A stretch of 64,000 bases of DNA from contig JBCBSM010000001.1 of NCBI GenBank assembly GCA_039819165.1, positions 1,922,001 to 1,986,000 on the forward strand. Direction: 5' to 3'. The position numbers and the translations under genes were made by a program. Source of the DNA: Planctomycetota bacterium (GTDB taxonomy: Bacteria > Planctomycetota > Phycisphaerae > Phycisphaerales > UBA1924). A model generated the notes under the pieces. It ran no database searches and was not told where the DNA came from. It saw nothing but the letters and a program-made list of their open reading frames with translations. Below, one piece after another: positions 45,830 through 49,204 of the stretch; the first letter of the stretch is position 1; every line of letters begins with the position of its first letter.

Positions 45830-46285
45830 TCAGCCGTCGCGGCCGAGCAGCACGTAGAAGGTCCAGCCGCCCTCGCCATCGGCGACGGCGCGGTGCGCCC
45901 GCACGGTGCCGCCGGGCATCGCCGCCGCGGCCTCGCGCATCGCCGCCGCCCGGGCGGCGCGGACGTCACCCGCACGGCCCCGAAACGCCCGGAAATCCAC
46001 GCCGTCGCGCGTGAACGGACCGCTCGTCCACCAGCTCGGAGCCGCCTCCTCGTCGCCCGCCGCAGCCCGCGGGCCGTCCTGCGGCACCGAGTCGGGTGCG
46101 GCCGCACCCCGGGACGCGGGCTGCGTCGGCGGCGCGAGCTCCGCCACGGGATCCGGAGCCGGCCCGCCGGGCGCGAGCGCGGTCCCCCCTGCGCCGCCAG
46201 TTCCGCCGCAGCCCGCGAGCCACGCCGGCCCCGTGCACGCCATGGCGGCCGCGGCAATCCCGATCGTGGTGATGCGCGTGCGCAT
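45830..46285 (-). CDS. Small lipoprotein of unknown function
   Basis: This 151-residue exported protein has a signal segment (TTIGIAAAAMACTGPAWLAG) and the lipobox LAGC, then a low-complexity Gly/Pro/Ala linker to about residue 85. A small C-terminal domain follows (WWTSGPFTRDGVDFRAFRGR, ending GGWTFYVLLGRDG). Its ATG lies within the nrdR stop (ATGA overlap), so the two are cotranscribed. No family is recognised. Confidence 0.78.
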   Translation of the reverse strand: MRTRITTIGIAAAAMACTGPAWLAGCGGTGGAGGTALAPGGPAPDPVAELAPPTQPASRGAAAPDSVPQDGPRAAAGDEEAAPSWWTSGPFTRDGVDFRAFRGRAGDVRAARAAAMREAAAAMPGGTVRAHRAVADGEGGWTFYVLLGRDG

Positions 46286-46800
46286 CAGGATCCGCTCCGT
46301 TGCTCCGCCGCTCCGTCGAAGAGCGGCTGCTGGTCCTTCACCGCTCGCGGCCGCGTTCGGAGCTGATCCAGCTCGCGCTGCAGCTCGTCGACGTTGGCGA
46401 ATCGGTGATACTCGCTCGCGAAGCGTATGTACGCCACCTCGTCGACCTCGCGGAGCTTGGCCATCACCCGCTGGCCGATCGCCTCGGATTCGACCTCCCG
46501 CTCGAACTCGGTCTGCAGCTCTTCCTCGACCTCGCCGGCGATCCGCAGCTTGACCTGCTCGGGTACGGGCCGCTTGCCGCAGGCCGCCTGGATGCCCCGC
46601 AGCACGTTCTCGGGGTCGAACGGCGCCCGCGTGCCGTCCCGCTTGACGACCACCAGCCGCTGCTGCTCGACCCGCTCGTAGGTCGTGAACCGCTTGTCGC
46701 AGCGATCGCACACCCGGCGGCGACGGATCACCCGGCCGCCCTCGGCGGGCCTCGAATCGATGACTCGGTCGTCGTTGCCGCCGCAGTAGGGGCAGATCAC
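46285..46800 (-). CDS. nrdR: Transcriptional repressor NrdR
   Basis: NrdR represses ribonucleotide reductase genes, sensing ATP/dATP through its ATP-cone. The 171-residue product has the N-terminal zinc ribbon ICPYCGGNDDRVIDSRP...CDRCDKRF with four Cys, then the ATP-cone LVVVKRDGTRAPFDPENVL. VASEYHRF-like VAYIRFASEYHRFANVDEL is the family end block. The C-terminal 25 residues are extra. GTG 46800 is the start, since the zinc ribbon begins there. Its target NrdR boxes and nrd genes are not in this window. It is divergent from the thrS leader. Confidence 0.95.
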   Translation of the reverse strand: MICPYCGGNDDRVIDSRPAEGGRVIRRRRVCDRCDKRFTTYERVEQQRLVVVKRDGTRAPFDPENVLRGIQAACGKRPVPEQVKLRIAGEVEEELQTEFEREVESEAIGQRVMAKLREVDEVAYIRFASEYHRFANVDELQRELDQLRTRPRAVKDQQPLFDGAAEQRSGS

Positions 46801-46899
46801 GGGGCTGGGGCTCCATGGGCCACTAGATCTTGGGGATGCTAGCACCGGTCCCGATCGCCCGTGTGGATCGCGATCGAGGATCGCGGCGCCGCCGGCCGA

Positions 46900-46905
46900 T
46901 ATACT
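46900..46905 (+). promoter_or_regulatory. Candidate -10 element of the thrS transcript
   Basis: TATACT lies 6 nt before the ATG of the Thr-rich leader ORF. A start site 7 nt past the box would fall on that ATG, so the leader peptide would be translated from a leaderless transcript. No good -35 hexamer is seen 16-18 nt upstream, which lowers confidence. Confidence 0.5.
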
Positions 46906-46911
46906 GCACCG

Positions 46912-46977
46912 ATGCCCGCCCGAACCACGACGACGACCATCGCGACGACTACGACGGAGAACCGCCCGAGCGGCTAG
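46912..46977 (+). CDS. Threonine-rich leader peptide upstream of thrS
   Basis: A 21-codon ORF starts MPARTTTTTIATTTTENR and closes with TAG at 46975-46977. Nine of its 21 residues are Thr (six ACG, two ACC, one ACT), in two runs of five and four, plus one Ile. This resembles the classic thr operon leader in its use of consecutive regulatory codons. It lies in the nrdR-thrS gap and is followed by a terminator hairpin and an overlapping alternative pairing. Its stop codon directly abuts the antiterminator strand (46968-46974), so a ribosome finishing the peptide would mask that strand. There is no Shine-Dalgarno; translation would be leaderless. A chance ACG repeat is the main alternative reading. 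Confidence 0.65.
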   Translation: MPARTTTTTIATTTTENRPSG

Positions 46978-47021
46978 GTCGGCGTGCATCGCGAGGATGT
47001 GCTTACCGTGCCCGGCCGCTC
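46968..47021 (+). promoter_or_regulatory. Candidate antiterminator of the thrS leader
   Basis: GAGCGGC (46968-46974) at the end of the leader ORF is the exact complement of GCCGCTC (47015-47021), which forms part of the 5' arm and loop of the downstream terminator. The two structures cannot form together. CCGC (46962-46965) can instead pair with GCGG (46970-46973), giving the usual 1:2, 2:3, 3:4 set. Ribosome stalling on Thr codons (46924-46956) would leave 46968-46974 free. Confidence 0.6.
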
Positions 47022-47038
47022 AGGCCGGGCTTTTGTTT
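47010..47038 (+). terminator. Attenuator-type terminator upstream of thrS
   Basis: GCCCGGCC (47010-47017) pairs perfectly with GGCCGGGC (47023-47030) across a 5-nt loop, then TTTTGTTT follows. It points toward thrS, whose ATG is 70 nt further on, and there is no gene between the divergent nrdR start and thrS that it could end. So it can only stop thrS leader transcripts. Confidence 0.8.
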
Positions 47039-47107
47039 GCCCCGATTTGTCTGCCAGAGAAACCCGGACTCGCCCGCCGAGCCCACGCCCCACACGGACC
47101 CCACGCC

Positions 47108-49204
47108 ATGGCCGACCCCATCAAGATCACCCTGCCCGACGGCTCCGTGCGCGAGTTCGAGGCCCCCACCACCCCGCTCGCGGTGGCCGAGTCCATCGGC
47201 TCGCGCCTCGCCAAGGCCGCCGTGGGCGCCCGGATCGACGGCGAACTCGCGGACGTGACCGCGACCATCAACTCCGACTGCGAGCTGGCCATCCTCACCG
47301 AGAAGACCCGCGAGGGCGAGCCCGACGCCGACGCGCTCTACCTGCTGCGGCACAGCACCGCGCACGTGATGGCCGAGGCGATCCAGCGCATCGTGCCCGA
47401 GGCCCAGCTCGTCTACGGCCCACCGCTCGACAACGGCTTCTACTACGACATCGCCTTCCCCGAGGACCGCCCGCTCCGCGAGGGCGACTTCGAGGCCATC
47501 GAGGCGGAGATGGCCAAGATCGTCAAGGAGGACCGGCCGTTCACCCGCTACGAGCTGGAGTACAGCGAGGGGCTCACAAAGCTCCAAAGCGAGGGCAGCA
47601 AGTACAAGATCGACAACGCCCACCGCGCACACGAAGCCGGGTCGCTGCAGCTCTCGTTCTACGCCACCGGCGAGCCGGGGAAGAACTGGGAAGACCTCTG
47701 CCGCGGCCCGCACGTGCCCAGCACCGGGCGCATCGGCGCGTTCAAGGTCATGTCTCTCGCCAGCAGCTACTGGCACGGCGACGAGAACAGCGACCGCCTG
47801 ACCCGCGTCTACGGCACCAGCTTCTTCAGCAAGAAGGACCTCGCCGACTACCTCAACCGCCTCGAGGAAGCCAAGAAGCGCGACCACCGCGTGCTGGGCA
47901 AGCAGCTCGATCTGTTCCACATCGACGACGCGGTCGGCCAGGGCCTCGTGCTCTGGACCCCACGGGGTTCGATCTTGCGGAAGGAGCTCCAGGACTTCAT
48001 CTCGGGCGAACTCACCAAGCAGGGTTACGCCGAGGTCTTCACGCCGCACATCGGTAAGCTGGACCTGTACAAGACCAGCGGCCACTTCCCGTACTACCAG
48101 GACAGCCAGTTCCCTCCCATCATCAGCCGTGATCACATGGCCTCGCTGGTCGGCGACAACAAGTCGTGTGAGGACCTGTCGAGCCTGTTGAAGGTTGGCA
48201 ACGTCGACGGATTCATGCTTAGCCCCATGAACTGCCCGCATCACGTCAAGATCTACGCAGCCAAGCCTCGGAGCTATCGGGAACTGCCGTACCGCATCGC
48301 CGAGTTTGGCACGGTCTACCGCTGGGAACAGTCGGGCGAACTCAATGGCATGACCCGCGTGCGCGGCTTCACCCAGGACGACGCGCACCTGTTCTGCACC
48401 CCCGAGCAGGTCGACGAGGAGGTCAGAGGCTGCCTCGAGTTGGTCAAGATCATCTTCGGGGCGCTCGACATGCACGACTACCGCGTGCGCGTCGGCCTTC
48501 GAGATCCCGACAGCGGCAAGTACACCGGCGACCCCGAAAACTGGGACAAGGCCGAGGAGGCCTGCCGCCAGGCCGCGCAATCACTCGGCGTGCCCTTCAC
48601 CGAGGAGCCGGGCGAGGCCGCGTTCTACGGGCCCAAGATCGACTTCGTCGTGCGCGACGTCATCGGCCGCGAGTGGCAGCTGGGCACCGTGCAGGTCGAC
48701 TACAGCCTGCCCGAGCGATTCGACCTGACCTATATCGGGGCGGACAACCAGCCCCATCGGCCCATCATGATCCACCGAGCGCCCTTTGGCAGCCTCGAGC
48801 GATTCGTCGGCGTGCTCATCGAGCACTTCGGCGGCGCCTTCCCGCTCTGGCTCAGCCCCGAGCAGGTCCGCGTGCTGCCCATCAGCGAGAAGAGCAACGA
48901 CTACGCGACCCGGATGCTCGATGCGCTGCGCGCAGCCAAGATCCGCGCCACCATGGACGACTCGGGCGACCGCGTGCAGGCCAAGATCAAGCACGCCGCC
49001 GACGAGCGCATCCCCTACATGGCCGTCGTCGGACCGCGGGATGCGGAGAACGGCGTCGTGTCCATCCGGGCCCGCGGCGTGCAGAAGGACCTGGGCGCGC
49101 TGCCGCTGGCGGAGTTCGTCGAGGCGCTCGTCGCCGAGCGCGAGAGCAAGGGCGAGAGCTCGGTGAGGGATCGCTTCGAGGTCGCGGAGCCAGCGGGTGT
49201 CTAG
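47108..49204 (+). CDS. thrS: Threonyl-tRNA synthetase
   Basis: This 698-residue class II synthetase has an N-terminal TGS domain (IKITLPDGSVREFEAPTTPL). The editing domain has the HxxxH zinc-like motif in HSTAHVMAEAIQRIVP, plus TLCRGPH-like DLCRGPHVPSTGRI. The catalytic core has the zinc Cys in LSPMNCPHHVKIY, motif 2 TVYRWEQSGELNGMTRVRGF and motif 3 PIMIHRAPFGSLERFVG. The C-terminal anticodon domain begins QVRVLPISEKSNDYA. ATG 47108 begins the TGS domain; an upstream in-frame ATG at 46997 would read through the terminator hairpin and is rejected. No Shine-Dalgarno is visible. Its leader suggests control by threonine-tRNA charging. Confidence 0.96.
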   Translation: MADPIKITLPDGSVREFEAPTTPLAVAESIGSRLAKAAVGARIDGELADVTATINSDCELAILTEKTREGEPDADALYLLRHSTAHVMAEAIQRIVPEAQLVYGPPLDNGFYYDIAFPEDRPLREGDFEAIEAEMAKIVKEDRPFTRYELEYSEGLTKLQSEGSKYKIDNAHRAHEAGSLQLSFYATGEPGKNWEDLCRGPHVPSTGRIGAFKVMSLASSYWHGDENSDRLTRVYGTSFFSKKDLADYLNRLEEAKKRDHRVLGKQLDLFHIDDAVGQGLVLWTPRGSILRKELQDFISGELTKQGYAEVFTPHIGKLDLYKTSGHFPYYQDSQFPPIISRDHMASLVGDNKSCEDLSSLLKVGNVDGFMLSPMNCPHHVKIYAAKPRSYRELPYRIAEFGTVYRWEQSGELNGMTRVRGFTQDDAHLFCTPEQVDEEVRGCLELVKIIFGALDMHDYRVRVGLRDPDSGKYTGDPENWDKAEEACRQAAQSLGVPFTEEPGEAAFYGPKIDFVVRDVIGREWQLGTVQVDYSLPERFDLTYIGADNQPHRPIMIHRAPFGSLERFVGVLIEHFGGAFPLWLSPEQVRVLPISEKSNDYATRMLDALRAAKIRATMDDSGDRVQAKIKHAADERIPYMAVVGPRDAENGVVSIRARGVQKDLGALPLAEFVEALVAERESKGESSVRDRFEVAEPAGV

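Follow-up and report, generated by a model that had tools for sequence, protein, structure and literature searches.

Within the window, by which we mean the whole 64,000-nucleotide stretch of planctomycete DNA that was analysed, the threonine--tRNA ligase gene thrS is very probably preceded by a real and conserved attenuator, the leader of which is probably read from a leaderless RNA. Comparison of sequences makes it highly likely, in our assessment, that this element is a ribosome-mediated leader-peptide transcription attenuator coupling thrS to the charging of tRNA-Thr. The anatomy of the element can be read directly, it is conserved among relatives, and the two folds predicted for it exclude one another. 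Attenuation of this kind is itself known; what is new here is the phylum, the strong Thr runs combined with true terminators, and the conservation across families.

Organization of the thrS upstream region

The product of the regulated gene is identified as ThrRS by TIGR00418, which it matches at 639.5 bits where the cutoff is 383.65, and the conserved elements lie at roughly 70-210 nt upstream of the gene (Table 1). The neighbouring nrdR is divergent, and the terminator at 47010 therefore lies inside the thrS 5' region and cannot end any upstream gene. A sequence-only reading of this DNA had described most of the parts, and its anatomy holds on recounting: the TATACT hexamer with an ATG 6 nt after it, the 21-codon ORF with nine Thr codons in two runs (of five and four), GAGCGGC adjoining the stop codon (TAG, 46975-46977), and the 8-bp hairpin with its U tract about 70 nt (69 nt as counted) ahead of the thrS ATG at 47108 are all in place, and GCCGCTC, the complement of GAGCGGC, is located at 47015-47021. 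Threonine thus accounts for nine of the 21 codons of the predicted leader.

Table 1. Features of the thrS region, in window coordinates
Feature	Position	Strand	Basis and remarks
nrdR	46285..46800	-	Divergent neighbour; TIGR00244 match; GTG start at 46800 read by eye
-10 box TATACT	46900..46905	+	Predicted transcript start ~46911-46913
Thr leader peptide ORF, MPARTTTTTIATTTTENRPSG then stop, predicted leaderless	46912..46977	+	21 codons; Thr-run ORF in 7/7 genus members
Regulatory Thr codons (codons 5-9 and 12-15)	46924..46956	+	Sequence
Segment 2, GAGCGGC	46968..46974	+	Predicted to be ribosome-covered at the stop codon and free on a Thr-codon stall; sequence, with geometry from an assumed footprint
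Antiterminator hairpin, 21 pairs	46968..47021	+	Predicted fold, -33.3 kcal/mol, z -3.92
Intrinsic terminator hairpin, GCCCGGCC-gctca-GGCCGGGC, 8 bp, loop GCTCA	47010..47030	+	-20.2 kcal/mol, z -4.18
U tract, TTTTGTTT	47031..47038	+	Invariant in genus
thrS, threonine--tRNA ligase, regulated gene in this reading	47108..49204	+	TIGR00418

In other bacteria thrS is controlled by T-boxes and by an operator to which ThrRS binds. These precedents speak for direct sensing by an RNA or tRNA (a T-box or riboswitch), or for binding of ThrRS to the leader of its own gene, the mode known from E. coli; such control is exceedingly improbable here, since a run of Thr codons would serve it no purpose and an Rfam scan of 46700-47300 gave no match to a T-box or other leader family, returning only a sub-threshold anti-hemB hit (22.3 of 49.5 bits) over the leader end and the terminator.

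Two alternative folds of the leader RNA

The seven-nucleotide complement noted in the sequence-only reading is present but forms only the base of a far longer antiterminator, in which 46968-46975 pairs with 47014-47021, 46977-46982 with 47006-47008 plus 47010-47012, and 46984-46990 with 46996-47002. When the stretch 46967-47023 was folded, none of 200 shuffles did as well. Because 47010-47021 is common to the terminator and the antiterminator, the two folds are mutually exclusive. The fold of the whole of 46900-47110 is no better than that of shuffles (z 0.20), the signal appearing only when the two alternative segments are folded apart.

Across the seven members of the genus the terminator hairpin is paired in 100% of cells, and an antiterminator-type fold of the corresponding stretch, taken to the terminator loop, occurs in all seven, at -23.0 to -31.0 kcal/mol in the six other than the window; the inner helix is CGTG/CACG in six genus rows as against GTGCATC/GATGTGC in the window. 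With the full stretch folded, terminator 3' arm included, the minimum-energy structure is the antiterminator in the window and in G002, and the terminator in the other five of the seven. As the terminator is favoured at equilibrium in those five, the antiterminator there must win by forming first. A check of relatives for a Thr-run ORF with covarying pairings, which the earlier reading had recommended, found the ORF throughout the genus (7/7); covariation is silent there, with 0 pairs changed on both sides, because the stems are nearly invariant.

In wider comparisons the genus was entered as one row (n=25). The duplexes between segment 2 and segment 3, that is, between the stop-codon stretch and the terminator 5' arm plus loop, beat shuffles (Fisher 2.7e-6, n=25), and partners from the same locus pair better than partners swapped among loci (-16.8 vs -15.2 kcal/mol, p = 0.0017, n=25), a result which suggests that the two pairing strands evolve together; across families the pairing is retained as an architecture. 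Among the loci listed, the stop codon and the terminator arm are 25-47 nt apart.

Proposed operation of the switch

The dynamics of the switch and its response to threonine are what we infer from this arrangement. RNA polymerase would start on the leader ATG or no more than a few bases from it, and so yield a leaderless RNA. When charged tRNA-Thr is ample, the ribosome would reach the stop codon and cover GAGCGGC and the bases next to it; for a ribosome footprint that we take as given, a stop codon in the A site places the leading edge near 46987, with GAGCGGC covered. The antiterminator would thereby be blocked, the terminator and its U tract would form, and transcription would stop. When charged tRNA-Thr is scarce, the ribosome would stall in the Thr runs with its leading edge just upstream of GAGCGGC (near 46966 with the last Thr codon, at 46954, in the A site, on the same assumed footprint), and the antiterminator, the strands of which are made first, would fold and absorb the terminator 5' arm, so that thrS is transcribed.

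An action of the leader on thrS translation or on the access of Rho, rather than on intrinsic termination, would have parallels in the mycobacterial cys leaders, which as far as described in PMC1262725 seem to be without terminators, and in the thrS leader of S. lividans, which has a hairpin and no U-rich stretch (PMC8079986). We judge such an action improbable here, where 31 loci have a hairpin and U-rich tail downstream of the leader, and the terminator loses its 5' arm to the alternative fold.

A predicted leaderless start

In the attenuation of thrS set out above, translation of the leader would begin at a bare RNA end. The -10 box (GATATACT) is kept in all seven genus members, 5-6 nt ahead of the leader ATG, and no -35 box is evident ahead of the leader in the genus; by eye, TTGACC or TTGACA stands 16 nt before the hexamer in L031, L104, L110 and L265. 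Of 31 loci, 28 have a TANNNT hexamer 4-11 nt ahead of an in-frame start of the leader, where 2.6 would be expected from shuffling the 40 nt upstream and choosing starts by the same procedure; with one row for the genus the count is 22 of 25 against 2.0 expected, and none of 200,000 simulations gave more than 10. The three loci not counted are L035, L074 and L254; L254 sits at the limit of the DNA that was fetched, outside the reach of the test.

The same spacing is common in the genome of the window (G000), of which contig C1 and a portion of C2 were scanned. At 5-9 nt ahead of the candidate starts of long genes TANNNT is enriched, with 132 matches at those five distances for 2742 candidate starts and about 2 per 1000 starts and distance elsewhere, and 137 of 992 genes have the hexamer 4-11 nt ahead of some candidate start. 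These figures suggest that leaderless mRNAs are common in this planctomycete and, since leaderless starts look frequent in G000, the thrS leader would follow the same habit; it is probably read from a leaderless RNA. The proposal of a leaderless leader, already made in the sequence-only reading, thus gains support both from the spacing of the -10 box across loci and from the genome-wide peak of -10-like hexamers before starts.

Distribution among relatives

The element was scored as present where an ORF of 7-45 codons with at least four Thr in six codons had downstream of it a hairpin with a folding energy of -7 kcal/mol or lower and a U-rich tail. Among 61 genomes (the window's own and 60 relatives) thrS was found in 59; upstream DNA was obtained for 50 of these, and at least 150 nt of it for 49. 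By this fixed rule 21 of the 49 carry leader and terminator ahead of thrS and 28 do not. The carriers comprise all seven members of the genus, eight of 20 from other genera of the family, and, in the other families, 1/1 (f3), 2/4 (f4), 1/6 (f5), 2/5 (f6) and 0/6 (f2), so that the arrangement, its sequence diverged, recurs in five of the six sampled families. Absence of the Thr-rich ORF or of the hairpin from close relatives, the observation that had been named as counting against the attenuator, is not what was found: both are present in 7/7 genus members. The Thr-run ORFs of the seven genus members have 17-21 codons. The leader peptides of the genus, MPARTTTTTIATTTTENRPSG in the window and MTYTPTTTTTTTETAPGG, MARTTTTTTTTQTASCG, MPRPTTTTTTTTETRPRG, MARPVLLTTTTTTTPANRPRG, MARPTSITTTTTTTHTRPRG and MHRPTTTTTTTTATRHRG in the others, retain the Thr run as the remainder drifts.

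In a collection of named records, 76 of which have at least 150 nt upstream and some of which represent the same organisms as the sampled relatives, 11 planctomycete records carry the element, among them JAEPOJ010000015.1, DLCK01000026.1 and CP087563.1, the last being the complete genome of 'Planctomycetes bacterium syqfu', which is not labelled a MAG; none of the named records titled as archaea has both ORF and terminator by the rule. One Verrucomicrobia record (L074) passes for ORF and terminator, probably by chance, as its run is loose and the -10 spacing is missing; it is included in the pairing, -10 and amino-acid and kinship counts and absent from the ThrS tree. That tree, built from 61 ThrS rows with one batch of the thrS loci fetched for upstream DNA left out, needs 11 gains or losses of the trait; shuffles need 19.6 and none of 500 reached so low a number, and the trait therefore clusters. 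The nine-row clade around the window, made up of the genus and two named genomes, carries the element throughout; several gains or losses are needed outside it.

Five loci with a Thr-dense ORF were dropped because they show no terminator by the rule (L038, L059, L255, L260 and L266); by eye, L260 and L266 have a hairpin with a poor U tract. L095 and L262 were dropped as duplicates, and L088, a near copy of L087, was dropped from the amino-acid table and kept in the kinship table. Some further arrangements were seen by eye. At L258 (G035) a weakened leader, MKARVQPPTRTTMPNLARRG, with three Thr, stands before a strong terminator and thrS, and is perhaps a decaying attenuator. At L254 and L257 (G008 and G026) a frame ending YRCPEC..LRLYA directly precedes thrS, and at L254 a Thr leader with its terminator is found ahead of that frame, some 350-440 nt upstream.

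Threonine against other residues and against chance

Of 130 thrS upstream regions fetched, five of them shorter than 150 nt, 118 distinct regions were used to compare threonine with other amino acids. ORF plus terminator was matched 30 times for Thr, seven for Arg, five for Ala, twice each for Ser and Pro, and once each for Lys, Leu and His; when the terminator was not demanded, Thr had 35 matches and Arg, the next, 22. The antisense strand of the thrS upstream regions gave none for Thr.

These controls bear on the view that the Thr ORF is a by-product of ACN repeats and the hairpin a constitutive terminator, marking the end of an upstream RNA or of a small RNA, with no translational control of thrS. 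ACN runs are no rarity in this genome (37 pattern matches, many of them overlapping; 125 for the backward control pattern), terminators exist elsewhere in it, and many of the single-locus pairing tests are not significant, p being below 0.05 in 7 of 31 loci, above 0.15 in 16 of 31, and 0.056 in the window. We nonetheless regard this view as quite unlikely, since run, frame, stop codon, spacing and terminator are all found again in the seven genus members and in five families while the rest of the peptide changes, threonine stands out over all other residues, and no upstream gene reads in. The recurrence of the element in relatives removes chance.

Within G000 itself only 181 strong terminators were found by rule in 2.84 Mb (C1 and part of C2), and intrinsic termination seems rare in this genome. 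Under the rule of four in six codons the thrS terminator is the only one of the 181 that follows a Thr-run ORF, and a looser scan of 694 hairpins adds three more Thr ORFs, each with TTT only. Other candidate leaders were considered, some residue run being found at 47 of the 181 terminators and in 13 rows among the 694 hairpins under the looser rule; most were rejected by eye, the runs of R, A, S, P and other residues coming from other frames or from the C-terminal tails of upstream genes. Those which survived this reading are Thr before thrS and His before hisG. As a separate observation, several terminators on C1 (for example at 2059495, 1917394, 2279949, 193554 and 194527) come after frames with repeated endings such as LTIFDFLEFQNLF..GCP or VPAPASLALLGLGGLAA.RRRR, which look similar to shared C-terminal anchoring or sorting signals.

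A His leader ahead of hisG

The His leader, VKSAAAIHRHHHPHHSPCRP then stop, lies at C2:307346-307408, with its terminator 60 nt before hisG (307523-308413), and is the only other case among the 181 terminators of G000 in which the residue run of the ORF fits the next gene. Leader and terminator occupy C2:307346-307470, with an antiterminator of the same plan as that of thrS, and the end of the leader pairs with the terminator arm at -22.4 vs -15.3 kcal/mol. The leader GTG comes 5 nt after a weak AATCGT hexamer, which by eye is 17 nt from TTGACC. A His run lies on the coding strand upstream of the hisG match at about 220 nt in G004, 180 nt in G005 and 190 nt in G003, and none was seen upstream of hisG in G012, from another genus, among the matches listed; the pattern is common (50-78 matches per genome), with a chance of well under 1% of falling in a given 300 nt of one strand.

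A wider proposal can be advanced tentatively, at rather less than even confidence: that Phycisphaerae-type planctomycetes have a general regime of leaderless attenuation, acting on thrS through threonine, on hisG through histidine and perhaps on others, in which leaders are read from the 5' end of the RNA. In such a regime the antiterminator would be made first and no strong protector hairpin would precede it, so that a finished leader peptide would mean off and a lack of translation would mean on. The folds of the full stretch, in which the terminator is favoured in five of the seven genus members, lower the odds of this proposal.

Comparison with known systems

Leader-peptide attenuators of enterobacteria control amino-acid operons and pheST. 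The planctomycete element resembles them in having a short ORF with many codons for the regulated amino acid, an antiterminator strand beside the stop codon and an arm common to both folds, and differs from them in its target, thrS, in its predicted leaderless start, in having no strong 1:2 protector hairpin apparent, and in its phylum. Leaderless polycysteine ORFs were reportedly described in mycobacteria by Canestrari in 2020. Together with S. meliloti, where the rnTrpL RNA begins with the trpL ATG (PMC7298713), these share with the thrS leader, as predicted here, the use of a leaderless leader peptide as an amino-acid sensor, and differ from it in amino acid, gene and phylum.

Synthetase genes under leaders for their own amino acid, with an attenuator, are described for trpS and leuS of Streptomyces (PMC1262725) and for hisS/hisZ of bacilli, where the control is by a leader peptide (PMC2965389); in this they are like the present case, and they concern other amino acids and phyla. 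The main texts of both papers are without the word 'thrS'. Leader genes near structural genes have been counted in Planctomycetes in a survey whose available portion does not mention threonine (PMC4833913). Our literature search, which covered open-licence papers only, found no report of an amino-acid attenuator in a planctomycete, in keeping with the sequence-only reading, which knew of no such system from planctomycetes; as the search was limited to such papers, this is weak evidence of absence. If the present reading is true, leader-peptide attenuation specific to an amino acid occurs in a phylum from which that search of open-licence papers found none reported. Leaderless leaders would in that case be found in Actinobacteria, alphaproteobacteria and planctomycetes alike, and with such recurrence one could test whether a bare 5' end is a favourable place of initiation for attenuation, as it may be because the ribosome can load once the RNA emerges. 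A Thr run followed by a terminator also offers an annotation handle for uncultured planctomycete genomes, and strong terminators are so few in G000 that each may merit reading for regulation.

The closest counterpart is found in Streptomyces lividans TK24, for which eight leader peptides, most of them described as leaderless, are reported from RNA-seq, leaderless leaders being mapped before leuS, trpE, trpS and thrS (PMC8079986). It follows that thrS is not a new target, and the account of thrS control elsewhere in the sequence-only reading, which named T-boxes and translational operators, was incomplete in passing over this leaderless Thr leader (PMC8079986). The S. lividans leuL2 before leuS has a hairpin and a U stretch, and its thrL, MKRVRPFLETTPGFVPAR, is described with two Thr codons, one hairpin, no U-rich stretch and no clear terminator (PMC8079986). 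Common to these leaders and the one described here is a leader peptide before a tRNA synthetase gene, leaderless by RNA-seq in S. lividans and predicted to be so in the window (PMC8079986). Unlike S. lividans thrL, the planctomycete element has long Thr runs, a strong terminator and a paired antiterminator, and it occurs in another phylum and in several families, which makes the thrS case much clearer here than in Streptomyces (PMC8079986).
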